From Bdellovibrionota bacterium (lineage in GTDB: Bacteria > Bdellovibrionota > Bdellovibrionia > Bdellovibrionales > JAMPXM01), in NCBI GenBank assembly GCA_963170185.1, contig CAUJGS010000051.1, positions 19,754-83,753 of the forward strand: 64,000 nucleotides of DNA. Direction: 5' to 3'. Positions 1 through 14,267 of the stretch are shown piece by piece (position 1 is the stretch's first letter; each line of letters begins with the position of its first letter). The translations under genes were made by a program, and so were the position numbers. The notes under the pieces are model-generated. The model was given only the letters and a program-made list of their open reading frames with translations, did no database searches and was not told the DNA's origin.

Positions 1-1880
1 CGACATTCGATGAAAAAGACATCGAAAAAGATGTATTGGATGAGGTGAGTTGGCTAGCGCCACAATCGCCAAGGGAGCAACTTGTTTTTGGTGATCTGGT
101 TTTGGGGTTCGATCAGTTTACCCTTGATGGATTCTGTCATCGAGTCATCACTCTCAAAACACTGCCAGAGATCACTTATGCCGGAATGATTGCGGACTTC
201 CTACATCTGCCGTTCCACTACGATTTGATCTTGTCTTTTGATGTGCCTCCTCAGGCCTCTGAGATGGCAAGGCTTCAGCAGAAACGAAAGATGGCCCATT
301 CTATGGCGGTCACGAGCGGCAATAAAGCCAGTGATCTTGAGAGCGAGACGAAACTTTCTTCGACTGAGGATCTGATTCGGGAGCTTTTGAATACGGGCCA
401 GCGTATTTACGCCGTTCAATTGAGCGTCGTTCTGAAAGCCCCCGCGACCCCCGAAGGTGCTAAGCGTTTGAATCGTAATGTGCGTGAGGCTCTGGCGCGG
501 TTTCGCGCATTGCAGGGAGCCGAAGGGTTGGAAGAAAGCGTTGGCGCATGGAAAGTGCTAAAGGGCAATCTTCCCGCAGCTCCGCTTTCGCTGGAGCGAG
601 CGCGGAAGATGAAAACCAACAACCTTGCGGATTTCCTTCCGGTTTATGGGCCGCGTGAGGGCGACCGTGATCCGGTGGTACTATTTCGCAATCGCTTGAA
701 TGGACTGGTGAGTTTTGACTCCTTTGATCCTTCTTTGCCGAATTACAATTCACTTGTAACGGGGGCATCTGGAGCGGGTAAGTCGTTCTTGAATAACTGC
801 ATACTTCTTCAAGAACTGGCTCGCGGTCGACGTGTGTTCATCATCGACATTGGAGGATCGTATAAGAAGCTCACGGAGGCTTTGGGCGGTCAATATCTTG
901 AGATCAATCTCTCAGAGCAATACCGGATCAATCCGTTCGATCTTCGCGATCCTACTCAAGAGCCTGGCAGTCAGAAGATCAAGTCATTACTTGCCTGTGT
1001 GGAAAGCATGGTAGGTGAGGACGACAAAGCAAAAATACCAAAACTTGATCGTGCCCTATTAGAACGGGCGATTATTGAACTTTACAAAATTCGCAGATCA
1101 AAGGGCGAGGTTCCAACGCTCAGTGACCTCGCCCGCTATCTTGCGGATTTTGAGGAAGACTCTATGAGGGCTATCTCCAAGATGCTTTATCTCTGGACGG
1201 GAGAACGTCCTTATGGCCGCCTTCTTGATGGGATGGGAAGCATTCGGACGGATGCTTCGATCTGCACTTTCGATTTGAAGGGTCTGTCGGCCTATCCCGA
1301 TCTTCAGAGCGTGATGATCCTCATTCTAACGGATTTCATTCTGACTCAGATTGAGGAAGATCGAACGACAAAGAAGCGAATCATTCTTGATGAAGCATGG
1401 GAGCTTTTAAAATCCAATGCAGCCGCTTCTTTCATGGAGTATTGCGCCCGTACCTTGAGGAAAACAGGATCAGGAATCACCTTTATCACTCAAGGTGTTG
1501 AGGAGATCGGGGCAAGTCCTGTCGGTCCTGCTATTCTCAACAACACCGCGACAAAGTTCATCATGCTTCAACGTGGGGACTCTGAAACCTTGCGAGAGAT
1601 ACTGCAACTAAACAGACAAGAGCTGAGCTTGATTCATTCTTTAGGACAAAAGAAGGGTGAGTTTTCAGAAGGCTTCATGCTTGAGGGAGATCATAGCCAA
1701 GTCGTGCGAATTTATCCGAGTCCTTTTGAATATTGGCTATCGACTTCAGATGCTCAAGACAATGCGTATCTGACAAAGATTCAGGAATCTGGATTTAGTT
1801 TGATTCAAGCTATCGAGAAAGCGGCCGCCGTCTATCCCAACGGCGTGACTCAAGGGACTGTAAAAGGAAGTGCGGCATGA
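1..1880 (+). CDS. VirB4/TraC-family conjugation ATPase, 5' end missing
   Basis: ATPase that energises pilus assembly and substrate transfer at the inner membrane of a type IV secretion system. The Walker A motif GASGAGKS lies near nt 762-785 and Walker B RIILDEAW near nt 1378-1401; a late TFITQGVEE stretch matches the VirB4 C-terminal RecA-like domain. The frame is open to base 3, upstream of the TTG at 36, so the gene begins outside the window. About 625 residues are visible against roughly 800 for the family, so the missing part is an N-terminal segment. The stop overlaps the next start by four bases (ATGA), so the genes are translationally coupled. Confidence 0.93.
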   Translation, partial: TFDEKDIEKDVLDEVSWLAPQSPREQLVFGDLVLGFDQFTLDGFCHRVITLKTLPEITYAGMIADFLHLPFHYDLILSFDVPPQASEMARLQQKRKMAHSMAVTSGNKASDLESETKLSSTEDLIRELLNTGQRIYAVQLSVVLKAPATPEGAKRLNRNVREALARFRALQGAEGLEESVGAWKVLKGNLPAAPLSLERARKMKTNNLADFLPVYGPREGDRDPVVLFRNRLNGLVSFDSFDPSLPNYNSLVTGASGAGKSFLNNCILLQELARGRRVFIIDIGGSYKKLTEALGGQYLEINLSEQYRINPFDLRDPTQEPGSQKIKSLLACVESMVGEDDKAKIPKLDRALLERAIIELYKIRRSKGEVPTLSDLARYLADFEEDSMRAISKMLYLWTGERPYGRLLDGMGSIRTDASICTFDLKGLSAYPDLQSVMILILTDFILTQIEEDRTTKKRIILDEAWELLKSNAAASFMEYCARTLRKTGSGITFITQGVEEIGASPVGPAILNNTATKFIMLQRGDSETLREILQLNRQELSLIHSLGQKKGEFSEGFMLEGDHSQVVRIYPSPFEYWLSTSDAQDNAYLTKIQESGFSLIQAIEKAAAVYPNGVTQGTVKGSAA

Positions 1881-2584: not shown

Positions 2585-3475
2585 ATGCCAGACTTTAATT
2601 TGATGGGGGCATTGATGCGTGAACTCCATCAAGAGTTTGTGCGGATGTACTACCTGATGCTGCCTGTATTCTTCTGTCTTTCCATTGCGATCACATGGAT
2701 GCGATCTTCCGGTGGAAGTTTGGAATTTGTTGATATTCTGAGACGTGCAGTCATTTCCACTCTGCTCTTGGCGGCGTTTCCTGAGATCAGTCGCGCCATA
2801 ATCTTTATTGCGGATGGAGTCGCTGAGAAGATCGACTCCATGAACACGCTTGATGCTGTGATCCAGATGGCAAAGGAAAAAAGCGATAGCTATCCGGCAG
2901 GAACCTCAGGCATCTTGCTCGGGTTTAACGATCTGCTCATGGCGACACTTTCATTTTTGAGTTTTTTGATTCTCTATGTAGCCCGCTACTTGATGATTGC
3001 GATGTATCACTTCTTCTGGGTGTTCTACATCGTCTCAGCTCCTCTTTTGTTACTTTTCAACTTGTTCCCTTCCACGGGAAATATCACGGCGAATCTCTTT
3101 AGAGGAATGATCGAGGTCGCCTGTTGGAAGATCGTCTGGGCGATACTGGGCGCTATGCTGGCGTCACTAGCCTTCGGGGATTCCTATAAGGCCGAAGGCA
3201 GCTATGTGACCATCATCGTGATGAACTTCGTTATTGCTATTGCTATGTTGGCAACGCCTCTCTTTGTTAAGTCATTGGGAAGTCAAGGGGTGCAGGCCAT
3301 GTCGTCAGGTCTTGCTCAACAAGCTACTGCCGCCATGACGGCGGTTCCAACCAAAGGGATGTCGCTTGCGGCAAAGGGGAGAGCGGCGTATTCGGGAGCA
3401 TCCTCCTACGTCGGTAAGAAATATGCGAACTACCAAGCTGAGAAGAAAAGGAAACTCGACATGTACCGTTATTAA
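2585..3475 (+). CDS. VirB6/TrbL-like polytopic membrane protein
   Basis: A 296-residue inner-membrane protein with at least five hydrophobic segments, at about residues 20-36, 50-70, 110-135, 140-160 and 205-225, and a basic, Ala/Lys-rich C-terminal tail. VirB6/TrbL forms part of the inner-membrane channel of T4SS. The size, topology and a position directly after the VirB5-like gene and before the VirB8-like gene all fit. No signal peptide is present. The start ATG at 2585 is four bases after the preceding stop and lacks a strong separate ribosome site, which suggests coupling. Confidence 0.78.
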   Translation: MPDFNLMGALMRELHQEFVRMYYLMLPVFFCLSIAITWMRSSGGSLEFVDILRRAVISTLLLAAFPEISRAIIFIADGVAEKIDSMNTLDAVIQMAKEKSDSYPAGTSGILLGFNDLLMATLSFLSFLILYVARYLMIAMYHFFWVFYIVSAPLLLLFNLFPSTGNITANLFRGMIEVACWKIVWAILGAMLASLAFGDSYKAEGSYVTIIVMNFVIAIAMLATPLFVKSLGSQGVQAMSSGLAQQATAAMTAVPTKGMSLAAKGRAAYSGASSYVGKKYANYQAEKKRKLDMYRY

Positions 3476-3485
3476 AAGGACCTCT

Positions 3486-4073
3486 ATGGAAGAAACCGTA
3501 AAACTAAAAATCAGAAAGCTGCCCAATGCCCTGGCTGAGCTTTCTCACTCAAACCAATTCTTGAAGATTTCAGCCTTTTCGTTGTTTTGTCTGACTGGGG
3601 TGATGCTGATGATTCTCTTATATCAGGCAACTAAGGCGCCAGTCGTTTTGCCGATGACCCAAGATGCTTCTGTCTACATGAGCGCCCCCATGCCTGATCC
3701 AAAGGTCGAGATTGAAAGGGCTGTGCGCGAATACTTGAAGCATCGCTACAACTGGACATCAAAGACAGTGACGACCCAGGTTGAAAAGGCTGGAGATTTT
3801 ATTCTCCCTTCAACGAAACGAGCCTTTAACAGCTCTATGCAAAACGTCATTCGATTTTCCGTGGATAAAGTCGTCGCACAGCGGGTTTACCCTATTGAAA
3901 TACGAGTGGACATGAAGAAAGGCGCCGTCGTTATTGAGGGAGATCGAATCACATCAATTCAAGGCTTGAAGGCCGCAGGCGATCTTCGTTTGGAACTCGG
4001 CTTTGAGTCAGGCCCACGCACAGAACGGAACCCGTGGGGCGTGTATATATCGAAAGAAAAAGAGTTCCAGTAG
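3486..4073 (+). CDS. VirB8/TraE-like T4SS inner-membrane protein
   Basis: A 195-residue bitopic protein: about 27 cytoplasmic residues, one membrane span (about 28-47), then a periplasmic domain. TraE/VirB8 proteins have this layout and bridge the inner-membrane channel to the VirB9/VirB10 core. The ATG at 3486 is chosen because AAAGGA precedes it and translation then begins just ahead of the membrane span; a longer frame from 3366 overlaps the upstream gene and adds only basic, non-family sequence. The periplasmic part (EREYLKHRYNW-like region, residues about 75-95) resembles TraE. It is followed by a 67-base gap and then the inserted cyclase-fold gene. Confidence 0.75.
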   Translation: MEETVKLKIRKLPNALAELSHSNQFLKISAFSLFCLTGVMLMILLYQATKAPVVLPMTQDASVYMSAPMPDPKVEIERAVREYLKHRYNWTSKTVTTQVEKAGDFILPSTKRAFNSSMQNVIRFSVDKVVAQRVYPIEIRVDMKKGAVVIEGDRITSIQGLKAAGDLRLELGFESGPRTERNPWGVYISKEKEFQ

Positions 4074-4140: not shown

Positions 4141-4908
4141 ATGCCAAATTTTGAGCTTAACTACGACGAATACTATGTGGCTTTTCTGGATGTTTTAGGA
4201 TTCAAAGAGCTTGTGATGTCGGAGAACAAGAAATCCGAACTTGATAAGTACTTCAATCTAGTGAGTGGAAGCATCCTAGCCATCAAGAATAGGAAGAAGC
4301 CGCTAGAGAGCGTTTTGATTAGCGACTCCGTTGTCTTAGCTTACCCGAAGCGAAGTGGGGTTATGGATGATCTCCGAGAGCTTTGTTTTGCTGTCGCGCG
4401 CATTCAGTATGCACTTGCCGTTAATGGGTTTTGGCTTCGAGGTGGGATAAGTTCCGGCAAGCTGTCTATCGAGCAATCAAAGAATATTGTCGCAGGTCCG
4501 GCGCTCGTAAAGGCATATCGGCTTGAGAATATAGCTGTTTATCCACGCGTGATCGTTGACCCGTCTTTGATTCTTGATTTCAGTACGATAAAAAGAGAGT
4601 TCACTACTGCTTTGAATACGCATCAGACGCCGGATTGGGATGGCAATTTAATTTGGCGCGATTCGGGAGGGCACGTCCTTCTCAACCTGGATGACGATGT
4701 GATGTTTATTGACTACTTTGCTCCATTGAAAACTAACTTTAGTATTGCCAGAGATGATGTCTTTTGGAAAATTCGAGATCAGATTTATCGAAAGCAAGAG
4801 AACTATGCGAAGTACAGATGGCTCGCACAATACCTACTGCTTTCGATTGATGAAGCTCAGTTGAAGGCCGACCCCGCTTTTGAAAAACAGATCACTGGAA
4901 TTTTCTAG
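4141..4908 (+). CDS. Class III nucleotidyl-cyclase-fold protein (possible defence or signalling cargo)
   Basis: A 255-residue soluble protein. Residues 11-21 (YYVAFLDVLGF), 59-66 (LISDSVVL), 99-107 (LRGGISSGK) and 117-129 (VAGPALVKAYRLE) line up in order with the metal-binding, second-Asp, GINxG and N-x-x-x-R regions of class III adenylate/guanylate cyclases. Both metal Asp (D17, D62) and the late Arg are present, but the transition-state Asn position reads Val, so the base or even the activity may differ. It lies between virB8 and virB9 but is not a known transfer gene, and it has its own flanking gaps, so it is probably cargo. Class III cyclases are also used in Pycsar anti-phage systems; no effector is adjacent, so that link is only a hypothesis. 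Confidence 0.55.
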   Translation: MPNFELNYDEYYVAFLDVLGFKELVMSENKKSELDKYFNLVSGSILAIKNRKKPLESVLISDSVVLAYPKRSGVMDDLRELCFAVARIQYALAVNGFWLRGGISSGKLSIEQSKNIVAGPALVKAYRLENIAVYPRVIVDPSLILDFSTIKREFTTALNTHQTPDWDGNLIWRDSGGHVLLNLDDDVMFIDYFAPLKTNFSIARDDVFWKIRDQIYRKQENYAKYRWLAQYLLLSIDEAQLKADPAFEKQITGIF

Positions 4909-4977: not shown

Positions 4978-5694
4978 GTGTTTTCACGAATTGTCTTTGC
5001 GATTCTGATGTTCTTGTTGCCGTCAGGTACCTGGGCCAATACCAGAGTGCGAACGGTCGAAGTTAAAAAGGATCAGATCGTCACGGTTAGGACGGCACTT
5101 GGAGTCGCAACGATCATTCAAGTGCCGGATCGACCGAACAGCCTTGTGGTTGGCGATCAATCTGCGTTCAAAGTTGAGTATCTGGACCAGGCCATTACGA
5201 TCAAACCCCTTCACCGAAACGCGCGGAGCAATCTCTACATCTACACCGAGTACAGACGCTTCAACGTACAGCTCGTGAGTGGGCCTGAAGTGGCTTCCGA
5301 TTATGTCGTCAATCTTGAAAACCCAAAAGAGAAAGCGAAAAGTTCCGCGATTGGTTGGCGAAACTTTCGCAATCACCTAAAAAATGAGTCCCTGGTTTTT
5401 GAAACCAAGAGACTCGCAAATACGGTTGACGGTGTTCTCTTGATCGAGTTTGAGGTGCATTCTGAAATCCGTGAACGTTTTCGTCCCGATTGGTTGTGGC
5501 TCACTCAAAACGGAGTTACGCGACCCATTCATAGCATTGCGCTTTCTGGTCAAGACTTGGGTGCTGGTCGCTCTATCAAAGGCGTGATGCAAGTTCTAAA
5601 GAGTGACGCATCCACAGCGGAACCATTGCGAATCGAATTGAGGAGAAAGAAAACCTCGTATCTCACGATCCCCAAGGGGGTTGCATGGAAGTAG
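4978..5694 (+). CDS. VirB9/TrbG-like T4SS outer-core protein
   Basis: A 238-residue exported protein, signal peptide to about residue 20 (cleavage after TWA). The order of beta-rich segments, a VVGD motif near residue 57 and then a stretch like IKPLHRNARSNLYIYTEYR, matches the N-terminal domain of VirB9/TrbG, which builds the outer-membrane core ring with VirB10. The start is GTG at 4978, with CGGAGG seven bases upstream. The 3' end overlaps virB10 by ten bases. The C-terminal part is more divergent than the N-terminal part. Confidence 0.85.
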   Translation: MFSRIVFAILMFLLPSGTWANTRVRTVEVKKDQIVTVRTALGVATIIQVPDRPNSLVVGDQSAFKVEYLDQAITIKPLHRNARSNLYIYTEYRRFNVQLVSGPEVASDYVVNLENPKEKAKSSAIGWRNFRNHLKNESLVFETKRLANTVDGVLLIEFEVHSEIRERFRPDWLWLTQNGVTRPIHSIALSGQDLGAGRSIKGVMQVLKSDASTAEPLRIELRRKKTSYLTIPKGVAWK

Positions 5695-6668
5695 CGGTGA
5701 AATCGTCCCTCATGGAGCGTGTTAAAAACTTCGCTTTCAAAGAGAAAGTCTATTTTTTGAAACGAAGAGAGATCAACTGGGCCTCACTTGCAAAGTGCGG
5801 AGCTATGGCACTCGTGATCGGAGTTGTGGGGATTTTGATGATTCCCGCACCCCAGGACACAGTCGGGGAGTTTCACGAACATGCCGCATTGGGAGAACGT
5901 CCCTCATTGGCTTCAGGCAGCGATCCCACTCACGATGCCGTAAGCCAGATCGGAGCGGGCCAGGGCTATGCGAGATCAGCCCCATCAAACTTGAGCCATC
6001 TCTATGCGCCAGCCTACGGAAGCGGTGGCGGCGCTACCTCTTTTGGTGACGAACGCAACAGCTCGATGATCCTTGCCCGTGGCGGCTTGGATAGCAAAAC
6101 CCAACTTCCCCCGGGAAGTCGGATTTCTGTCAGGCTCTACGAGCGAGCCATCGTTGCGAATCATGGGATGCCTGTTATCGGTGTAGTCATACGCGATTAC
6201 ATTCACGAGGACACGCTTGCGATCCCTCAAGGATCAAAGCTCTTTGGGGATGTGACCTTTGGTGATGGTGGGGACCGAGCCAATGTGAGCTGGAAGTCTG
6301 TTCAATTCCCCGACGGAAGAGAGAGGGAATTCGCGGCCATAGGTGTTGGTTCAGATGGACAGGTCGGAGTTTCTGGTCGCGTTCATTCTGAAGCCTTAAA
6401 GAACACGGTGGGGCAAACGCTCACGCGCTTTATCGGAGCCTATGCGGAAGGCTCCATGCAGCGTGGGGCTTTAGGTGAGAACCCGGGGGGCGACGACAAT
6501 GGATGGAAGAACGCCATTGCCGAAACCGCTAAGGACCGAGCCGAGAGCTGGGCGAGTGATCTCAAGAAGGAGAAGCGATGGATTGAGATTTCAAATCAAA
6601 CGGAATTTTATGCCGTTCTAACGGCAAATTTCGCTTTCCGCGACCCCGGAACCACTTATGGCAGATAA
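5685..6668 (+). CDS. VirB10/TrbI-like T4SS core protein
   Basis: A 327-residue protein with a cytoplasmic N-terminus, one membrane span (about residues 36-54), a linker rich in Gly and Ser rather than Pro, and a C-terminal VirB10 domain. The domain begins near LPPGSRISVRLYERAIV and continues through the IPQGSKLFGDV and PDGREREF segments that are typical of TrbI/VirB10. VirB10 spans the envelope and senses ATP use by VirB4 and VirD4. AAGGGGG precedes the ATG. It overlaps virB9 upstream and virD4 downstream, so the three genes are coupled. Confidence 0.9.
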   Translation: MEVAVKSSLMERVKNFAFKEKVYFLKRREINWASLAKCGAMALVIGVVGILMIPAPQDTVGEFHEHAALGERPSLASGSDPTHDAVSQIGAGQGYARSAPSNLSHLYAPAYGSGGGATSFGDERNSSMILARGGLDSKTQLPPGSRISVRLYERAIVANHGMPVIGVVIRDYIHEDTLAIPQGSKLFGDVTFGDGGDRANVSWKSVQFPDGREREFAAIGVGSDGQVGVSGRVHSEALKNTVGQTLTRFIGAYAEGSMQRGALGENPGGDDNGWKNAIAETAKDRAESWASDLKKEKRWIEISNQTEFYAVLTANFAFRDPGTTYGR

Positions 6669-8268
6669 AAAAGAAAGTTCCCAAGTTGGCGATCAAACGC
6701 TGCTTTGGGGTGCCGGAATTGTTTTCGGCCTGATGGCTTTGAACAAGGTCTTTAACTTTTTGAACGTCTGGATCAGAGAGCCACAAAACCAGATCATTCT
6801 CCTTGGTCTTTGCGTATTGCTCTTAACGCCGCTTTTTTATTGGTTGGTAAGAAAGCACGAATCCAATTTGAAGAAGCAAACTCAAGAGAAAGCAGTCATC
6901 GGTAAAGCCGAAGGCTCTGTTTTCTGTGGGGTCACGGATAGGCAAGAGGAAGTTCATATCAAAACCCGCCAGCGAGCGATGCATACTCAAGTGATCGGCA
7001 CGACCAACGCCGGAAAAACTGAGAGCGTGATCCTTCCCTGGGCAATTCAAGATATTGAACAAGGGCGCGGTCTGATTCTCATTGATGGGAAATCAGACCG
7101 AAGCCTTCTGGATAAACTTTGGGCGTATGCGGTGAAACACAAGCGGCAAAAGGATTTTCGCTTGTTTTCACTGAGTAGCCCCGATGAGTCACACCAGTTC
7201 AACCCTCTTCTTGGTGGCAGCCCCGAAGAAGTGGCTGAGCGCGTGTTCAATTCTTTTGAATTTGAAAACGAGTATTACCGAAGTGTGCAATTTGAAATCT
7301 TCGCTCAGGTGATGCGGATTTTTTCGGAGAGTCAGGAGCTTCCGACCTTCCTAAAGGTCTTTGAGGCCATCTCGACACCGAACAAGCTAAAGGCTCTGGC
7401 TGAGAAATCTGGAAACCAAGGACTGAAGAACTGGGCGAAGCACTACGCCGGTCTTCCTGCAACGGAAGTTGCGCAAAGGACAAGTGGCCTCACGGCGGCT
7501 CTTAGTCATTTTGCTTTTGGAAAGACTTCGGCGTTGTTCAATACGGATAAGCCAAGCATCGACCTGGATTGTGCCTTGAGGGAAAATCAGATCGTGTATT
7601 TCCAGCTTCCCGTGATGCTTTCGCCTTTCCTGGGGAAAGCATCTGGGAAGATGATTCTGCAATGCCTTCAAAGTGCGGTCGCAAACCGTCACCGTGGGGA
7701 AAATCGGAATCACAAGTTTTACTCGGTCTTCCTCGATGACTTTTCTGAGTACCTATACCCAGGCTTTGTCACGATCTTGAACAAATCGAGAAGTGCTAAC
7801 GTTGGGATCGTGTTTGCGCATCAGGCCTTGGGTGATATCAAGACAATGGGTGACGCGATTGCCAATTCGATTCTGACTAATGCGAATCTCAAGGTGTTCA
7901 TGCGCGGCAATGACCCCGAATCGGCGGAATACTTCTCGAAGGTAATCGGAACCGTCACGAGCATGAAATACACCTCACGCACGAAACGTGGCGTGTTCAG
8001 CCAAGAGGACACAGGCGACGCTTCGGCCCGTGAGGTGGATGAGTTTATCATTCATCCCAACCGTTTCAAAAGCGAACTTGGTGTGGGACAAGCCGTTATG
8101 GTCATTCCACACGAGGCTGGAAGTCGAACCATCAACATCAAGTTCCAGAAGTTTGATGACCTACCACCTGAGCCATTTTTGAAAGTTGAGAAGACGGCAT
8201 CAGCCGGACTTACGGATTTACCTGAGACTGAAACGCCTCGATTTCATGGAGGTAAAAATGCAGCGTAA
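6658..8268 (+). CDS. VirD4/TraD-like type IV coupling protein
   Basis: A 536-residue hexameric ATPase that brings the relaxase-DNA complex to the secretion channel. It has two N-terminal membrane spans (about residues 16-36 and 45-62), Walker A GTTNAGKTE near residue 119 and a Walker B-like VFLDDFSEY near residue 357. LIDGKSD and the region around QTSGLTAALSHF fit TraD/TraG family sequences. Its start lies inside the end of virB10 and its end overlaps a lipoprotein gene. Its presence argues that the system transfers DNA rather than only effectors. Confidence 0.92.
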   Translation: MADKKESSQVGDQTLLWGAGIVFGLMALNKVFNFLNVWIREPQNQIILLGLCVLLLTPLFYWLVRKHESNLKKQTQEKAVIGKAEGSVFCGVTDRQEEVHIKTRQRAMHTQVIGTTNAGKTESVILPWAIQDIEQGRGLILIDGKSDRSLLDKLWAYAVKHKRQKDFRLFSLSSPDESHQFNPLLGGSPEEVAERVFNSFEFENEYYRSVQFEIFAQVMRIFSESQELPTFLKVFEAISTPNKLKALAEKSGNQGLKNWAKHYAGLPATEVAQRTSGLTAALSHFAFGKTSALFNTDKPSIDLDCALRENQIVYFQLPVMLSPFLGKASGKMILQCLQSAVANRHRGENRNHKFYSVFLDDFSEYLYPGFVTILNKSRSANVGIVFAHQALGDIKTMGDAIANSILTNANLKVFMRGNDPESAEYFSKVIGTVTSMKYTSRTKRGVFSQEDTGDASAREVDEFIIHPNRFKSELGVGQAVMVIPHEAGSRTINIKFQKFDDLPPEPFLKVEKTASAGLTDLPETETPRFHGGKNAA

Positions 8269-8767: not shown

Positions 8768-10159
8768 ATGGAAAACGGGACAAATCTCATATCAAATCAG
8801 ACTTGGGTTATTGCGGACACCAACTACTTTCTGCATTTTCAGTACCCCGATCAAATTGACTGGAACGCTTTAGTTTCATCAAAGCAAATTATTTTGGTTG
8901 TTCCAGTGACCGTAATTGATGAACTCGACAAACATAAAAATGCATCTTCGGCAAAGCTGCGCTCAAGAGCAAAGTCGACAATTGCGAAACTAAGAGACGT
9001 TAGCCGAACTGATACAAAAATGTGGGGTCAGGATATTCGGGTGGAAATTGCTCCGAATATCCCCCTGGTTGATATGAAAGATCTTGGGTTAGATGAAGGC
9101 CGCGCAGACGACAGAATTATCGCATTTGCGATTTCCTTTGCTAAAAATAGAGAAACTGAGTCATCACGAGTTTTTGTTGTCTCAAATGACTTCGGTATGG
9201 AGCTAAAGTCTAAAGGGCGCGGTATTCGCTTGTTAGCACTACCCGACGATCTTGCTCTTGCTGGCGAGTTAGATCCACTCGAAAAAGAGTTAAGGGATTT
9301 GAAGAAGCAAAATGCAGCCCTTACCAGTCGGATACCTAATCTTTCTGTTACAATGAATGAGTCTGGAAGCCGATTTGACACAACATTATCTCCAGTTCCA
9401 AATCTTACCGATGACGAAATTGAGTTAAGAGTTGCTGAAGTTAAGAAACTTAATCCGCTTCATGTTGAAGCTCCAATTACTGTTGACGTAAAAGATAAAG
9501 AGGTCAGTTCACAGTACAATATAGATCTACAAAAGATTTCCGCTGCGGTATCCGCGCTCCAGGGGCTGGGACGTCCATCAAAGGAACAGTGGGAACAATA
9601 TAATTCTAAACTTGAACATTTCTATAGAGAATATCGAGACTATCTTCGTCAAGAACAAGCCCACAAAGAGCTTGTGGGGCGGTCGATATTTCTAAATCTA
9701 GATATCGAAAACGCCGGAACAACTCCAGCCAGCGATGTTCGAGTGATTTTGCATTTTCCAGACGGATTTCAGCTGATCGAATATGAAGACTTCCCCGAAG
9801 CACCAAACGCGCCTTTAGCTCCCCGAGAGCCTCGTCTGCACAGCCTAGCCGAAATGATATCCATGAATCATTTGATGCAGTCCGGGCTGTCCAGGCCCAT
9901 ACCGGGGCTAAGCTCACTTGAGATAAATAGGGAGCCACCAAATGTTAGTGGTTTTTCAATCAAACCCACTAATAGCTTCGAAGTTAAGTTCAATGTTCGA
10001 AAGGTGATGCATGGAGACCCTATTTTCTTGAGGTGTTTGGTTGTAATTTTTGATTCTGCGGCCGAAGCTCACTCTTTTGCTATAGACAGTAAGATTATCT
10101 GTGATGAGTTGCCCGAACCATCACACAGCCAACTTCATGTCATCGTAAATCGGCAATAA
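8768..10159 (+). CDS. PIN-domain ribonuclease-like protein with C-terminal extension
   Basis: A 463-residue protein. The first about 160 residues form a PIN domain: ADTNYFLHF (first acidic residue near 17), VIDELDKHK, DEGRADDRIIAFA and VVSNDFGM supply the usual four acidic positions of this metal-dependent RNase fold. A coiled-coil-like stretch (about 170-195) and a longer beta-rich C-terminal region with no family I recognise follow. The base composition is visibly more AT-rich than the transfer genes. It is a lone gene between the T4SS operon and the relaxase candidate, and no small antitoxin partner is adjacent, so it looks like cargo, possibly a defence or toxin nuclease. Confidence 0.65.
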   Translation: MENGTNLISNQTWVIADTNYFLHFQYPDQIDWNALVSSKQIILVVPVTVIDELDKHKNASSAKLRSRAKSTIAKLRDVSRTDTKMWGQDIRVEIAPNIPLVDMKDLGLDEGRADDRIIAFAISFAKNRETESSRVFVVSNDFGMELKSKGRGIRLLALPDDLALAGELDPLEKELRDLKKQNAALTSRIPNLSVTMNESGSRFDTTLSPVPNLTDDEIELRVAEVKKLNPLHVEAPITVDVKDKEVSSQYNIDLQKISAAVSALQGLGRPSKEQWEQYNSKLEHFYREYRDYLRQEQAHKELVGRSIFLNLDIENAGTTPASDVRVILHFPDGFQLIEYEDFPEAPNAPLAPREPRLHSLAEMISMNHLMQSGLSRPIPGLSSLEINREPPNVSGFSIKPTNSFEVKFNVRKVMHGDPIFLRCLVVIFDSAAEAHSFAIDSKIICDELPEPSHSQLHVIVNRQ

Positions 10160-10277
10160 ATTAGCTCATTTATGTTGAGAGAAAAGTTACGTCTAAAAAA
10201 AATGAGTTCTCCAATTGAGTAATCTCATCTCGAAAAAAGGATGATGATGCATACTCCTTCACAGAACGCTTTTTAAA

Positions 10278-11042
10278 ATGAGCGGAAAATACATTCCGCA
10301 CCAAGAAATCATATTTGCGGCTAAAACCGGATTTTTGAGTAAGGATTTGTGGCTAAAGTATTTCACTGCTCGTTCTCCAAGTCGAAACTCTCGCATATGG
10401 AATCGATTCTTAGCGGACGGTTACTTCAAGAAACACGAATCCAAGATGTTGCCAGACGTCTTGGTTTTGGATCGCGCTGCTCGTGAAGAGCTTGAAAGGC
10501 GAGGAGCCAACGTCGTTACTAGTCCCCATCTGAGCCAGTTCGATCACGATGAAAAAGCTGCGAGAATTGCCTTAGCATTACAGAGAACAGAGTTGATCGA
10601 GGATTTTACTACAGAAGCAGAACTCAAACGACAGCATTGGTTGTGGCTCAAAAGCACAAAGGCTGGAGTCGAGGCGAAGTTTCCTGATCTGACACTTAAG
10701 CTACCTGTTGGTGCGAAGTTTTTGAAAGTTGCAGTCGAGATCGAGCAATCAAAGAAAAATTTTGATCGTTACAAGAAAGTGATGAGCAGCTACGCCAGCT
10801 CAAAAGATATCGACCTTGTGGTTTTCATTTCAAACAACCAAGCGATTTTCAATTCGATCTCTCGGGCAATGAAAGAAGTGAATTATCCTACATGGGAACG
10901 ACCCGTTGGTTTCGGCAAGATGAATTTGTGGCTCAAGAACCCCGAGTCAGCGTCCATATACTTGAGTAGATCCGTGACCTCGATATGCGAAATCGTCGCA
11001 GATGTGACTAGCAACACAACTAGCAAATCGTTTGCTAGTTGA
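10278..11042 (+). CDS. Candidate MOBC-type relaxase (restriction-endonuclease fold, Replic_Relax-like)
   Basis: A 254-residue protein with a winged-helix-like N-terminal region (about 1-85) and a PD-(D/E)XK-like core. PDLTL supplies D137, VEIEQSKK supplies E154 and E156 with K159/K160, and Y165 lies in FDRYKKVMSSY. MOBC relaxases such as TraX of pAD1 and MobC of CloDF13 use this nuclease fold rather than the HUH Tyr fold, with a D...ExE...K arrangement. It lies directly beside the large inverted repeat at 11094-11219 and no other relaxase is visible. A 10-bp inverted repeat closes the gene (11018-11040). The function is an inference; it could instead be a replication protein. Confidence 0.5.
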   Translation: MSGKYIPHQEIIFAAKTGFLSKDLWLKYFTARSPSRNSRIWNRFLADGYFKKHESKMLPDVLVLDRAAREELERRGANVVTSPHLSQFDHDEKAARIALALQRTELIEDFTTEAELKRQHWLWLKSTKAGVEAKFPDLTLKLPVGAKFLKVAVEIEQSKKNFDRYKKVMSSYASSKDIDLVVFISNNQAIFNSISRAMKEVNYPTWERPVGFGKMNLWLKNPESASIYLSRSVTSICEIVADVTSNTTSKSFAS

Positions 11043-11093
11043 GGGACAGATCCTCGCACGAAAAATTGAGCAGATTTATATTTAAAAACAATA

Positions 11094-11219
11094 ACTTACC
11101 CTCCGTCTCACTTTATGGGGACTGCCCCTGATCGACTCAAGACCCCTCCCACCCAACGAGTACATTGGTTGAGAGGGGTCTTGAGTCTAGGGGCAGATAA
11201 ATTTCGGTGGAGGGTAAGT
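11094..11219 (+). other. Putative origin of transfer (nested inverted repeats)
   Basis: The non-coding gap between the relaxase candidate and the accessory gene contains nested exact inverted repeats. The outer arms ACTTACCCTCC are at 11094-11104 and 11209-11219, the middle arms CTGCCCCT at 11122-11129 and 11189-11196, and the inner arms GACTCAAGACCCCTC at 11134-11148 and 11173-11187. The stem continues imperfectly to a short loop at 11157-11164. There is no poly-T tract, so a terminator is unlikely. A large hairpin next to a relaxase gene is the usual sign of oriT. The nick site cannot be placed by eye. Confidence 0.6.
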
Positions 11220-11236
11220 CTGAAAGGATTAAAAAA

Positions 11237-11872
11237 ATGGATAATTTAGAGAAGAAGAGAGAAATGCAGGCGGCCTGTGATGTCATAGGAAGTGAGGTGT
11301 CAAAAACAAGTGAAGTGCTAAACGAAGTGGTTTCGGTTTCCAATCGGAGTGGCCGCGGTGTTCAATCGGCACACGGCCTCGACGCTCAGTCGGCGCTCGC
11401 CTCGGACAAGACGGCCTTGGGTGTCCACGATTGTGTGGTGGAGGAATCTGGTGAGGTCATTGATGAAGCGACTTCGATTTCCAATCGGAGGGGCCGTAAG
11501 GGACGCTCAAGCGCCGCGCGGCTTGGAGCCGATCAGTTCGATAGCGCGGCTGATAACACGCAATATCGCGTTCTGATTTCGCCCGAAGCGAATCTCGCAG
11601 TTGACGATCTGATCGGCCATGTCAATTCGGGGTTCGATGGCGGGAAGGTCACACGGCCTCAGTTGGTGAGCTGGATTCTTTGTAAGTTCGCACGGACCAT
11701 CGCAGAGCCAGATTTGCAGGAGATTCGTGCCGTCCACTTCGACCGCATTGCTTATTTTGAAGCCTTGCTGAAGCGGGCTAAGGAGACGGGCGAAGTACCG
11801 CCAGAGCTAGCGGCTTTGCTTCCCGCATCCAATGTTACAATGAACAATGGCAGGAAAAAACGATCTGTTTGA
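11237..11872 (+). CDS. Putative relaxosome accessory protein
   Basis: A 211-residue soluble protein with no family I can name confidently. The first 100 residues are low-complexity and contain an internal duplication: VSVSNRSGRG near residue 32 and TSISNRRGRKG near residue 79 arise from near-identical DNA at 11332-11355 and 11473-11496. The C-terminal part (about 110-190) is helical, and includes a segment of LISPEANLAVDDLIGHVN type that resembles a ribbon-helix-helix or dimerisation domain. ATG 11237 is preceded by GAAAGGA. Lying immediately after the oriT-like repeat, it probably assists DNA processing or regulates the gene downstream. Confidence 0.5.
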   Translation: MDNLEKKREMQAACDVIGSEVSKTSEVLNEVVSVSNRSGRGVQSAHGLDAQSALASDKTALGVHDCVVEESGEVIDEATSISNRRGRKGRSSAARLGADQFDSAADNTQYRVLISPEANLAVDDLIGHVNSGFDGGKVTRPQLVSWILCKFARTIAEPDLQEIRAVHFDRIAYFEALLKRAKETGEVPPELAALLPASNVTMNNGRKKRSV

Positions 11873-11908
11873 CATAATATCACCATTGATTTTATCATCA
11901 ATGGTGAT
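11869..11908 (+). promoter_or_regulatory. Promoter with palindromic operator ahead of the XRE gene
   Basis: A TTGACA -35 box (11869-11874) and a TATCAT -10-like box (11893-11898) are separated by 18 bases. A perfect 12-bp inverted repeat ATCACCATTGAT, with a 6-base spacer, spans 11879-11890 and 11897-11908, overlapping the -10 box and the spacer. This is the classic placement of a repressor operator, and the XRE protein encoded 35 bases downstream is the obvious ligand. The hairpin also lies just after the preceding stop, so it might act partly as a terminator, but no T-tract follows. Confidence 0.6.
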
Positions 11909-11942
11909 GTAAGATGCTCTATAAGGGCTAACGAATGGAATA

Positions 11943-12170
11943 ATGATGAAAAATGGAGAAATCCTAAAGCTCAGAGAGCGGCTTGGTCTTGATCGCCATC
12001 AGTTCGCGGAGTTTTTGGGACTGACCAGTTACCAAAGCATGATGAACATTGAAAATGGTGTCAGGAATCCAAGTCGCTTGGCAATGAAGGTGTTGCGCTA
12101 CATCGACTCGCTTTCAAAGGCGAAAGCTCTGGCTTTCATTGAGGAGTTAAATCGCCATGAGCCTAGATAA
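11943..12170 (+). CDS. XRE-family helix-turn-helix regulator
   Basis: A 75-residue DNA-binding protein, almost entirely one lambda-Cro-like HTH domain: LRERLGLDRHQFAEFLGL, then an SYQSMMNIENGVRNPS recognition segment. The ATG at 11946 is an alternative start. It probably represses its own promoter through the palindrome at 11879-11908 and so controls the recombinase operon. The gene precedes two small ORFs and the recombinase with overlaps or short gaps, so integration and excision are likely co-transcribed with it. XRE-controlled recombinase modules are common in ICEs and phages. Confidence 0.85.
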   Translation: MMKNGEILKLRERLGLDRHQFAEFLGLTSYQSMMNIENGVRNPSRLAMKVLRYIDSLSKAKALAFIEELNRHEPR

Positions 12171-12273
12171 GTTCTGGCAAAACTGTAAGGAAGCTAATGA
12201 CACACTCTTCGGGCAACGTTGGCAAGAGGGCCAGCTCCGATCAGTTGAGTGTCCACTTGATTCCGGTCAATAA
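12157..12273 (+). CDS. Possible 38-residue ORF coupled to the XRE gene
   Basis: An ORF of 38 codons starts at an ATG inside the last codons of the XRE gene and ends at TAA 12271-12273. The product begins MSLDKFWQNCKEANDTLFG and has a Trp-rich helical look. It overlaps another small ORF (12197-12397) in a different frame, so at most one is likely to be a stable product. The overlap with the XRE stop would allow coupled translation. No family is recognised. Confidence 0.25.
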   Translation: MSLDKFWQNCKEANDTLFGQRWQEGQLRSVECPLDSGQ

Positions 12274-12397
12274 ACAAGTTGCAGATGATCCAATACGACG
12301 GGCAGAGATCGTCAGTCTTATCGCGCAGATCGTGCTGTTGGGGAAATCGCGTAAGCGTGTGAGCCGAAAGAAAAAGGAAGAGAAGTATGCCGTATAA
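12197..12397 (+). CDS. Small basic protein preceding the recombinase
   Basis: A 66-residue protein with a Lys/Arg-rich C-terminus (near residues 51-63). An AAGGAAG ribosome site precedes the ATG, and its end overlaps the recombinase start by eleven bases, a layout seen for small accessory ORFs in front of serine recombinases in mobile elements. The central helical segment (VSLIAQIVLLGKSRK) and the basic tail suggest nucleic-acid binding. No recognised domain; a directionality factor is conceivable but unsupported by similarity. Confidence 0.5.
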   Translation: MTHSSGNVGKRASSDQLSVHLIPVNKQVADDPIRRAEIVSLIAQIVLLGKSRKRVSRKKKEEKYAV

Positions 12398-14267
12398 AAT
12401 TGGTGCTTACGTTCGAGTGTCCACGGAAGAGCAAGCTCAGGTCATGGACGGATCACTAGATAGCCAGCAGCATCGCCTAAAGAACTTCGTGCAGTCGAAG
12501 ATCATACAAGAGAAAAACTGGGGAAAGATCGTTGAAACTTATATTGATGACGGGTTTTCCGCAAAAGACACCCGCCGTCCCGCGTATCAACGGATGCTTC
12601 GTGATATTCGCTCTGGAAAAATCGACTTGATCTTGGTGACTGATTTATCGCGCCTTTCGCGCAATATCTCTGACTTCTGTGGCCTGCTTGAGGATTTAGA
12701 ATCGCACAGAGCCAAGTTTCTCTCCGTCAAAGAGCAGTTTGATACGAGCACGCCCGTTGGCGAAATGATGATCTACAACATGATTAACTTAGCTCAGTTT
12801 GAGCGTAAGCAAACGTCAGAGCGTGTTTCCATGAATTTCAATTCTCGCGCCCTGCGTGGGCTGTTGAATGGTGGAACCGCTATTCTTGGGTATGATAAAG
12901 ACCCAGAAAATTCAGGCAAACTCGTAGTGAATAAAGCTGAGGCACCTGGTGTGAGGAAAGTCTTTTCGTTGTATCTGGAAACCGGAAGTTTCCAGGCGAC
13001 AGCCGTAAAGCTAAATGCCACGAGTATTCGACCGAAGGTCGGCAAAAGCCGAAAAGCTCGACACGCCATCGAGGGCCGCTGGACAGTCGATTCTGTAAGA
13101 AGCCTCCTCACGAATCTTGCTTACATTGGAAAGCGCGAGGTTAATAAGAAGAACAAAGATGAGCCTCAGGAGACTTTGAAACCTTGGCATCGCTACCAAG
13201 TCGTAAAGGCTTCGTGGCCTGGGATCGTCGAAGAAAAGGATTTTTTAGCGGCGCAGAGATTGATTGAGGAAAACTGGAGAAGAGAAAGAAGTCGCATTGC
13301 CAAGGGCGAGCGTCGCTTCTTCCCATTGTCCGGTGTTCTACGTTGCGGCGACTGCGACAGGGCTTTGATCGGCCAAACTTCGCACGGAAGAAATGAAGCG
13401 CATCGGTATTACGGTCATAAACTTGTGGTCGGAGAAACCATCAACTGCAAAACCAAACGCCTCCGCGCTGATGAAGTAGAGGCAGCCACCATCGCGCATC
13501 TGACAGAGATTCTTTTCCGTAGTGGTCATTTTGATCTTGTGGAAGAAAATTTGAAAAAATCCATTAGTGCAGAGGGAAACGATCTCGTGTCCGAGCGTGA
13601 CCGCGTTCAGCGTGAGATCGTGGGAGTCGAAGGTGAAATCGAAGGGGCCATGAAGCTCATGGAGCAGGTTTCCCAAAACCAAGACGTTATTAATCTCGTT
13701 CAAGAGCGCCTTGAGAAATTAGCCGCAAAAAAGAAGCTCTTGGTCTCCGACCGTGAGAGTTTGATATTGAAAATTGACGAAATCAACGACGCGAAGGCTA
13801 GTCGTTCTGTCATTGAGGCCAATGCCCATGAGTTTAAAAAAGGCTGGTCAAAAGCCAGCCAAGCCATGAAACGCCGTCTTATTCGTCGCCTTGTAGATAG
13901 CCTCGTATACACCCGTGAAGGGCTTTACGCCTACTATGTGACTACCAAGGAACAGGTCGCTGTCCAGCCAATCCCATCCAAAAAAGTGGCCTCGGAGGAA
14001 AACTCCGAGGCCATGCCTAACAATGTCCATTCCATAAAAAAGAACCCCAAGTGTCCGCCCCGCACCTTTGCGGACGGCGGTGTACTTAGGGTTGGTATTG
14101 GTGGACCTGATCGGGATCGAACCGACGACCTCTACCGTGCCACGGTAGCGCTCTCCCAGCTGAGCTACAGGCCCCTTGCGAATGGAACCCCGATCTTAGC
14201 GACTTCACCGGGATTTGAGCAATCAAAATACCTGCTTGCGCCGTCGCGCCCTCTCGAGTCACGATAG
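12387..14267 (+). CDS. Large serine recombinase (integrase/excisionase of the element)
   Basis: Site-specific recombinase of the resolvase/invertase superfamily. The catalytic Ser is in YVRVSTEEQ (S12), with the arginines of LSRLSRNISDF near residue 88. The recombinase domain (about 165-290), the zinc ribbon CGDCDRAL with the C...C pair that follows (about 320-365) and a coiled-coil (about 400-470) are in the normal order, and the family sequence ends near residue 530. Beyond that the frame has no stop and continues 96 codons through two terminators and the antisense strand of the tRNA-Ala gene, giving a spurious-looking tail (GPDRDRTDDLYR). The true C-terminus would differ in the excised circle. 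Confidence 0.88.
   Translation: MPYKIGAYVRVSTEEQAQVMDGSLDSQQHRLKNFVQSKIIQEKNWGKIVETYIDDGFSAKDTRRPAYQRMLRDIRSGKIDLILVTDLSRLSRNISDFCGLLEDLESHRAKFLSVKEQFDTSTPVGEMMIYNMINLAQFERKQTSERVSMNFNSRALRGLLNGGTAILGYDKDPENSGKLVVNKAEAPGVRKVFSLYLETGSFQATAVKLNATSIRPKVGKSRKARHAIEGRWTVDSVRSLLTNLAYIGKREVNKKNKDEPQETLKPWHRYQVVKASWPGIVEEKDFLAAQRLIEENWRRERSRIAKGERRFFPLSGVLRCGDCDRALIGQTSHGRNEAHRYYGHKLVVGETINCKTKRLRADEVEAATIAHLTEILFRSGHFDLVEENLKKSISAEGNDLVSERDRVQREIVGVEGEIEGAMKLMEQVSQNQDVINLVQERLEKLAAKKKLLVSDRESLILKIDEINDAKASRSVIEANAHEFKKGWSKASQAMKRRLIRRLVDSLVYTREGLYAYYVTTKEQVAVQPIPSKKVASEENSEAMPNNVHSIKKNPKCPPRTFADGGVLRVGIGGPDRDRTDDLYRATVALSQLSYRPLANGTPILATSPGFEQSKYLLAPSRPLESR
13980..14013 (-). terminator. Second minus-strand terminator downstream of tRNA-Ala
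   Basis: A perfect 11-bp stem (TGGCCTCGGAG, 13987-13997, with its complement at 14003-14013) with a 5-base loop is followed on the minus strand by a T6 tract (13980-13985). It lies inside the recombinase reading frame, on the side towards which the tRNA gene is transcribed. It backs up the terminator at 14035-14091 and would prevent tRNA transcription running into the recombinase gene antisense. Confidence 0.7.
14035..14091 (-). terminator. Intrinsic terminator of the tRNA-Ala gene
   Basis: On the minus strand, eight bases after the tRNA 3' end, CCCTAAGT pairs with ACTTGGGG (14084-14091 with 14045-14052) and an inner GTCCGC/GCGGAC stem (14053-14058 with 14070-14075) extends the hairpin; TTCTTTTTT follows. 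The closeness to the tRNA shows it is the gene's terminator. Whether it is native or brought in by the element depends on where the crossover lies. Confidence 0.7.
14099..14174 (-). tRNA. tRNA-Ala (anticodon GGC)
   Basis: 76 bases including an encoded CCA (14099-14101). The acceptor stem is GGGCCTG/CAGGTCC (one G-U pair), the D arm is GCTCAGCTGGGAGAGC, the anticodon stem CTACC/GGTAG encloses GTGGCAC with anticodon GGC, and the T arm carries TTCGATC. The cloverleaf closes fully, and the sequence is close to typical bacterial tRNA-Ala(GGC). Its 3' end faces the recombinase gene and is the probable integration target of the element. Confidence 0.95.

Follow-up and report, generated by a model that had tools for sequence, protein, structure and literature searches.

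A probable MOBC-type transfer module with a nested inverted repeat in an integrative element of a Bdellovibrionota bacterium

Which protein, and which DNA site, would start the transfer of an integrated element that brings its own type IV secretion system (T4SS)? The question is raised by a 64-kb stretch of contig C51 of a Bdellovibrionota bacterium (G000:C51:19754-83753, the whole of which is called the window here). The host genome, G000, is rated 95.7% complete and its named closest relatives are mostly Bdellovibrio-group bacteria. On the plus strand of the window, genes for VirB4/TraC, VirB6-like, VirB8/TraE, VirB9/CagX and VirB10/TrbI proteins, a TraD-type coupling protein and a Gly-zipper protein are followed by a PIN gene, a 254-aa open reading frame (ORF), a nested repeat, an accessory gene, a helix-turn-helix (HTH) gene and a serine recombinase gene, and then by a tRNA-Ala on the minus strand. 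We consider it likely that positions 10278-11872 constitute the DNA-processing module of an integrative and conjugative element (ICE), composed of a MOBC-type relaxase, a predicted origin of transfer (oriT) and an accessory protein, for which we infer relaxase activity, the nick position (nic), oriT function and transfer.

The predicted relaxase and its resemblance to TraX

The predicted relaxase gene (10278..11042, plus strand) has an ATG start and encodes 254 residues. A first-pass annotation of this DNA had described a PD-(D/E)XK-like protein with D137, E154/E156 and a nearby Lys, and the ORF, the residues and the predicted fold are indeed all present. More specifically, the AlphaFold model (predicted local distance difference test, pLDDT, 90.8) combines a winged helix (about residues 1-78) with a PD-(D/E)XK nuclease (about 88-237), the combination that characterizes MOBC. 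D137, E154 and E156 do not vary among 41 aligned homologs or among 31 divergent relatives, and H90, P136, A152, K160, R164 and Y165 are likewise invariant across the homologs. A structure comparison of the model placed solved nickases among the middling matches, and a sequence search of the PDB yielded nothing useful.

The clearest link to MOBC runs through enterococcal plasmids. Both pAM373 and pTEF1, which we take to be a pAD1-like plasmid, are typed MOBC by MOB-suite, and their 261-aa relaxases pass PF13814. The pAM373 relaxase and TraX of pAD1 are related (PMC7117660). A profile of the pAM373 protein, aligned with 35 of its 116 relatives, was compared by hhalign with a broad family profile of the window protein (31 relatives). 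The match has a probability of 95.7 and an E-value of 9.3e-9 over 206 columns, with D137, E154, E156, K160 and R164-Y165 in register with the enterococcal TraX-type relaxases. Leaving out two proteins from small elements gave a probability of 87.3 and an E-value of 3.8e-6, and the controls gave E-values of 0.73 (reversed columns), 0.057 (best of 60 column shuffles) and 0.45 (the accessory protein). The structure and profile comparison proposed in the first-pass annotation thus led to a TraX-type protein with the D-ExE-K site aligned, and not solely to a plasmid-replication or unrelated restriction fold, which it had named as the adverse result.

Two observations weigh against this assignment. 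Taken singly, the relaxase falls under every curated cut-off: the ORF has no Pfam match, PF13814 included, and its best curated family match, NF041423 (MobC_subf), reaches 23.4 bits versus a cut-off of 200 bits. Moreover, a first, narrower profile gave a probability of only 8.8 and an E-value of 0.0038 versus TraX, though in an identical register; the profile was widened because the narrow one was too shallow. Since the window protein passes neither PF13814 nor NF041423, it is labelled MOBC-like here. Passing a curated model is a diagnostic aid and not the definition of MOBC membership, and NF041423 is likewise missed by the relaxases of pTEF1 and pAM373 (23.3 bits). MobC_subf is matched by 36 of the 41 near homologs and by all 31 members of the broad relative set. 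The MOBC identity proposed earlier is supported by the TraX-type profile match, by the modelled winged helix and PD-(D/E)XK nuclease and by a hairpin linked to the gene family. The family profile matches 148 of the 368 genomes of the phylum; no relative was confirmed on viral contigs, and the plasmid search returned four records, all only at an E-value of 0.8 or worse.

A Pfam scan of 20 ORFs from the element and the flank before it, which did not extend to the N-terminal part of VirB4 or to some upstream ORFs, detected no HUH relaxase. Genome-wide, PF03432, PF08751, PF03389 and PF07514 had no matches, the MOBV, MOBT, MOBB and MOBM models not being included in that search. Each of the four models matched in at least one control genome; PF07514 represents MOBH, which is not HUH. 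The earlier statement that the element has no HUH relaxase therefore holds for the 20 scanned ORFs and, across the genome, for PF03432, PF08751 and PF03389. Nor did one appear in the scanned upstream-flank ORFs, where its presence in the same element would have spoken against MOBC.

The nested inverted repeat as a predicted oriT

The predicted oriT is a nested inverted repeat (11094..11219) that starts 51 bp past the relaxase gene. The exact arms of 8, 11 and 15 bp that had been claimed directly beside the ORF are real: they were read from the sequence as 11 bp (11094-11104/11209-11219), 8 bp (11122-11129/11189-11196) and 15 bp (11134-11148/11173-11187), and the outer and inner pairs were confirmed by script. 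The inner hairpin (11134..11187), with the 15-bp exact arms, bears the conserved apical core CCCTCCCACCCAACGAG. Folded as DNA, the repeat reaches -39 kcal/mol (z -7.5), a value equalled by none of 200 shuffles. No other strict nested repeat occurs in the window, and none of 100 resamples of 9000-13000 holds one.

The pairing of hairpin and gene recurs in relatives across the phylum. Of the flanks of 40 distinct relaxase genes, 39 were long enough to be compared. Over 250 nt, 36 of these fold with z<-4, versus 6 of 120 flanks of other ORFs from the same loci; L031 (-3.8) and the small-element loci L091 (-3.6) and L004 (-2.9) do not reach this value. A strict nested repeat is present in 35/39 flanks and a relaxed one in 38/39, with 14 of 987 random windows passing the relaxed test (13 of the 1000 drawn were skipped, as the core lay inside). 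Within loci of about 20 kb, 16 of 17 have a strict nested repeat, each at most about 130 bp from the end of the relaxase gene, and L099 has none. Of the 39 flanks, 37 contain the core stem, and among these the apical sequence is CTCCCnCCCAACG in 25 and includes ACGA in 34; a core match at L088 was taken as chance, having no stem. In an alignment of eight near relatives, 8 of 39 pairs have changed on both sides with pairing retained.

Known MOBC plasmids have a similar arrangement. Six TraX-type plasmids (L106, L107 and L123-L126), inspected from among 282 records with a TraX match, contain one strict nested repeat each, found in 0 of 100 resamples each. Their repeats are near-identical in sequence and therefore count as about one independent case. 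L128, also inspected, is typed MOBP with a partial TraX match and has no nested repeat. From the 876 CloDF13-type records two were inspected: L127 has one strict nested repeat (0/100 resamples), and CloDF13 itself (L086), in which a 14-bp outer stem is perfect and the inner stem imperfect, fails the strict test and folds with z -5.9. The plasmid repeats lie upstream of the relaxase gene, on L127 ahead of the coupling-protein gene, and their inner arms read TGACCA..TGGTCA, versus mostly GACCCC..GGGGTC in the relatives from this phylum. A nested repeat near the gene is common to the window family and the MOBC plasmids, as a feature found here and not taken from a published definition.

The plasmids also allow a prediction of nic. 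The CloDF13 nic, presumably GGGTG^GTCGG (caret, nick), is present as a string in the CloDF13 inner arm. The nic of the MOBC element ICEKp1, listed as GGTTG^GTCGCG (PMC7755788), would fall in the TGACCA..TGGTCA inner arms of the plasmid repeats, and on pMET1 two nic sites were located inside an inverted repeat (PMC2262945). The distance from nic to five TraX-bound direct repeats is 70-120 bp (PMC12857230); on pTEF1, five direct repeats with a 12-bp period (L107:2907-2984) start 68 bp from the inner-arm GGTC. On these grounds nic is predicted at GAGGG^GTCTT between 11177 and 11178 of the plus strand, with a mirror site between 11143 and 11144 of the minus strand. At the end of the relaxase gene (11007..11039), ACTAGCAA occurs twice together with the inverted TTGCTAGT. 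These candidate binding repeats are conserved yet non-coding in near relatives; their distance to the two nic positions predicted above is about 105-170 bp, and repeats are significant in 12/34 (inverted) and 6/34 (direct) intervals.

Might the nested repeat instead be an RNA leader or operator that controls the accessory gene, with the nuclease acting elsewhere? It does stand directly before that gene, the likely start of which (ATG 11237, behind AAAGGA) is 17 bp past the repeat. The composition of the stem is, however, unlike that of an RNA helix. The six pairs flanking the core in the 37 flanks (27 distinct stems) comprise 217 Watson-Crick, 1 G-T and 4 other pairs of 222, versus a mean of 103 Watson-Crick (maximum 125) and on average 29 G-T pairs with permuted arms, in counts that cover related and hence non-independent sequences. 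With wobble pairs nearly absent, the stem seems constrained to pair as DNA and not as RNA, and an inner stem that varies in sequence but stays Watson-Crick would argue for a role as DNA. A terminator was considered and dropped, as 10900-11400 contains no terminator- or promoter-like site; the same holds for a known RNA family, with no Rfam match above the gathering score and microRNA-model matches below theirs. Moreover, the hairpin is kept where a different kind of protein follows it (L096, L099, L100) or where the accessory gene is missing (L004, L091). Control of the accessory gene through RNA or an operator thus appears improbable.

Hairpins mark some replication origins too, and the related Pfam family PF13814 is named Replication-relaxation, so the protein might be taken not for a transfer relaxase but for a replication initiator that uses a hairpin as its origin once the element has been excised. 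Against this stand the alignment to the TraX-type relaxases, the lack of matches to the four other relaxase families in the genome, and, in 10 of 12 divergent loci, the position of the gene behind those for the coupling protein and the T4SS (L062 and L064 are without such a match). In addition, PF13814 proteins of integrative mobilizable elements (IMEs) were classed as MobC relaxases by CONJscan (PMC5357655). We give replication initiation even less credit than the RNA or operator reading. Least credible of all is a restriction-, defence- or transposase-type nuclease that is in the element by chance. The PD-(D/E)XK fold is common to many nucleases and one of the 41 homologs has a weak TnsA-like match (E-value 0.032). 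There is, however, no PADLOC match, the TraX alignment spans both the winged helix and the nuclease, and the synteny with T4SS genes and hairpin persists across wide divergence. A MOBC-type relaxase acting at a neighbouring oriT thus remains the preferred explanation.

The element and its relatives

The T4SS genes and the coupling-protein gene adjoin the predicted relaxase, as seen in Pfam and profile scans and as expected of an ICE. All on the plus strand, they encode the main part of a VirB4/TraC ATPase (36..1880), a VirB6/TrbL-like protein (2585..3475, a weak match), VirB8/TraE-like (3480..4073), VirB9/CagX-like (4978..5694) and VirB10/TrbI-like (5685..6668) proteins and a TraD/VirD4-type coupling protein (6658..8268). 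The VirB4 gene starts upstream of the window; a split gene was considered and dropped, the apparent split being the window edge only. Neither VirB11 nor VirB2 was identified among the T4SS genes of the element. Further upstream, the contig encodes a TraL/VirB3-like protein (a weak match) and another protein that contains sigma-70 region 4. Within the T4SS gene run, 4141-4908 encodes a 255-aa protein without Pfam or PADLOC match, and other loci hold different insertions between the VirB8 and VirB9 genes. The small Gly-zipper protein is encoded between the coupling-protein gene and the gene of a PIN-domain protein (8768..10159, plus strand). The latter gene, an insertion, separates the coupling-protein operon from the relaxase gene and was not found in the ten near-relative loci.

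The accessory gene (11237..11872, plus strand) encodes a likely DNA-binding protein of 211 aa. The earlier start at GTG 11207 was wrong, as it lies inside the repeat, and ATG 11237 is the most likely one. The model of the protein (pLDDT 72) has no Foldseek match at E<=0.001, and within the accessory set Pfam matches fall in various unrelated families. A weak match to AvtR (E-value 0.14), which we take to be a ribbon-helix-helix protein, would make this fold a guess for the accessory protein as well. Behind it follow an HTH protein (11943..12170, plus strand; HTH_3, sub-threshold) and a large serine recombinase (12387..14267, plus strand) with Resolvase, Recombinase and zinc ribbon domains, the ORF end of which overlaps a tRNA-Ala (ggc; 14099..14174, minus strand), the likely attachment site.

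The integrase at this attachment site and an interval that differs in relatives are further ICE characteristics. Sequences that match the flanks C51:215-2612 and C51:33850-35606 are separated by about 4 kb in G210 and about 12.5 kb in G211, compared with 31 kb here; therefore, the element sits in a variable interval next to tRNA-Ala. No direct repeat marking the left element end was found. Upstream of the window, between the left flank and the T4SS genes, L003:8014-13200 encodes a protein of 1728 aa that has five PKD domain matches and may be cargo of the element. Transfer RNA and tmRNA genes are an unusual target for serine recombinases of this class. Nevertheless, in 12 of the 13 element loci searched such a gene (Ala, Met, Pro, Phe, Leu or tmRNA) is found no more than about 230 bp from the recombinase end, L054 having none.

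In near relatives the identity to the window is mostly 75-97% for the T4SS proteins, 54-67% for the relaxase and 28-75% for the accessory protein. One relative record (L011) carries the label Fimbriimonadaceae and is possibly misbinned. A second element of the same genome (L004 on G000:C129, L004:8435-11850) encodes a relaxase above the PF13814 cut-off with 22% identity to that of the window, next to a nested hairpin (outer 12, inner 13 bp), a small ORF, a serine recombinase and a tRNA-Leu. L091 is organized alike: both combine the hairpin with a divergent relaxase and have neither a T4SS match (for L004 on its whole 13.7-kb contig) nor an accessory gene. The C129 element is likely an IME and could borrow the T4SS of the window element.

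Three further loci have the hairpin and no recognized relaxase. L087 (G210:C63, about 1020-1200) has a nested hairpin with the conserved core, beside genes that we take to be a BrnT/BrnA toxin-antitoxin pair, and the profile found no relaxase on its 5.6-kb contig or genome-wide; this is possibly an orphan oriT. At L089 (near 790) and L090 (near 9980), a hairpin and a serine recombinase accompany a transposase-like gene at the place expected for the relaxase, perhaps in elements broken by insertion.

Proposed mechanism and comparison with known systems

The predicted relaxase would nick inside the nested repeat at G(T/G)G^GTC in the inner arm (11177^11178), aided by the accessory protein as a putative part of the relaxosome. 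The nicked strand would then be handed to the coupling protein and the T4SS, rejoined in the recipient and integrated by the serine recombinase at tRNA-Ala. How MOBC relaxases hold and rejoin DNA without an observed covalent link is described as open (PMC12857230). As a tentative suggestion, of which we are rather doubtful, they may act on a folded single strand: once in the recipient, the transferred strand would take up the nested hairpin again and recreate a duplex nick site, so that the enzyme could terminate transfer and rejoin the ends without a covalent protein-DNA link. The idea arises because a PD-(D/E)XK nuclease needs double-stranded DNA, and it requires a strictly Watson-Crick inner stem free in sequence, an apical core conserved on one strand and two mirror-image GGTC sites. 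If true, it would span Bdellovibrionota to Enterococcus and Enterobacteriaceae.

Of the relaxase families, MOBC belongs to the less well understood ones, and no paper on MOBC elements of Bdellovibrionota was found among the open-access papers searched. The large natural set of relaxase-hairpin pairs, partly invisible to Pfam, makes a recognition code and the predicted nic testable. Two further suggestions follow: conjugation may be common in the phylum of the Bdellovibrio-like bacteria, in elements that curated models would call relaxase-less, and small elements with a hairpin may be carried along by larger ones.

Among known systems, the Replic_Relax (PF13814)/MobC IMEs of streptococci have VirD4, relaxase and serine integrase in one compact order, as here; they are mobilizable, lack a T4SS and belong to another phylum, and the available part of their description does not mention a hairpin (PMC5357655). 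MobC of the CloDF13-type plasmids (L127, L086) represents the best curated match of the window protein (MobC_subf), and the inner arm of the L127 repeat, CTGACCACCC, resembles GACCACTCCC of some relatives here. However, these plasmids have the order repeat-coupling protein-mobC without a T4SS, the apical core is not in common, and the window protein is far under the MobC_subf cut-off. The TraX-type relaxases (pTEF1, pAM373; prototype pAD1 TraX) reside on plasmids of Bacillota, whereas the window case is an integrated element. Sequence identity is low, PF13814 is passed by the TraX-type proteins alone, and their repeat precedes the gene, next to five direct repeats, whereas here it lies behind the gene. 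Nevertheless, winged helix and PD-(D/E)XK nuclease with the active site in register are common to both, and nested repeats of 139-142 bp there and 126 bp here have inner arms with GACC..GGTC in both.
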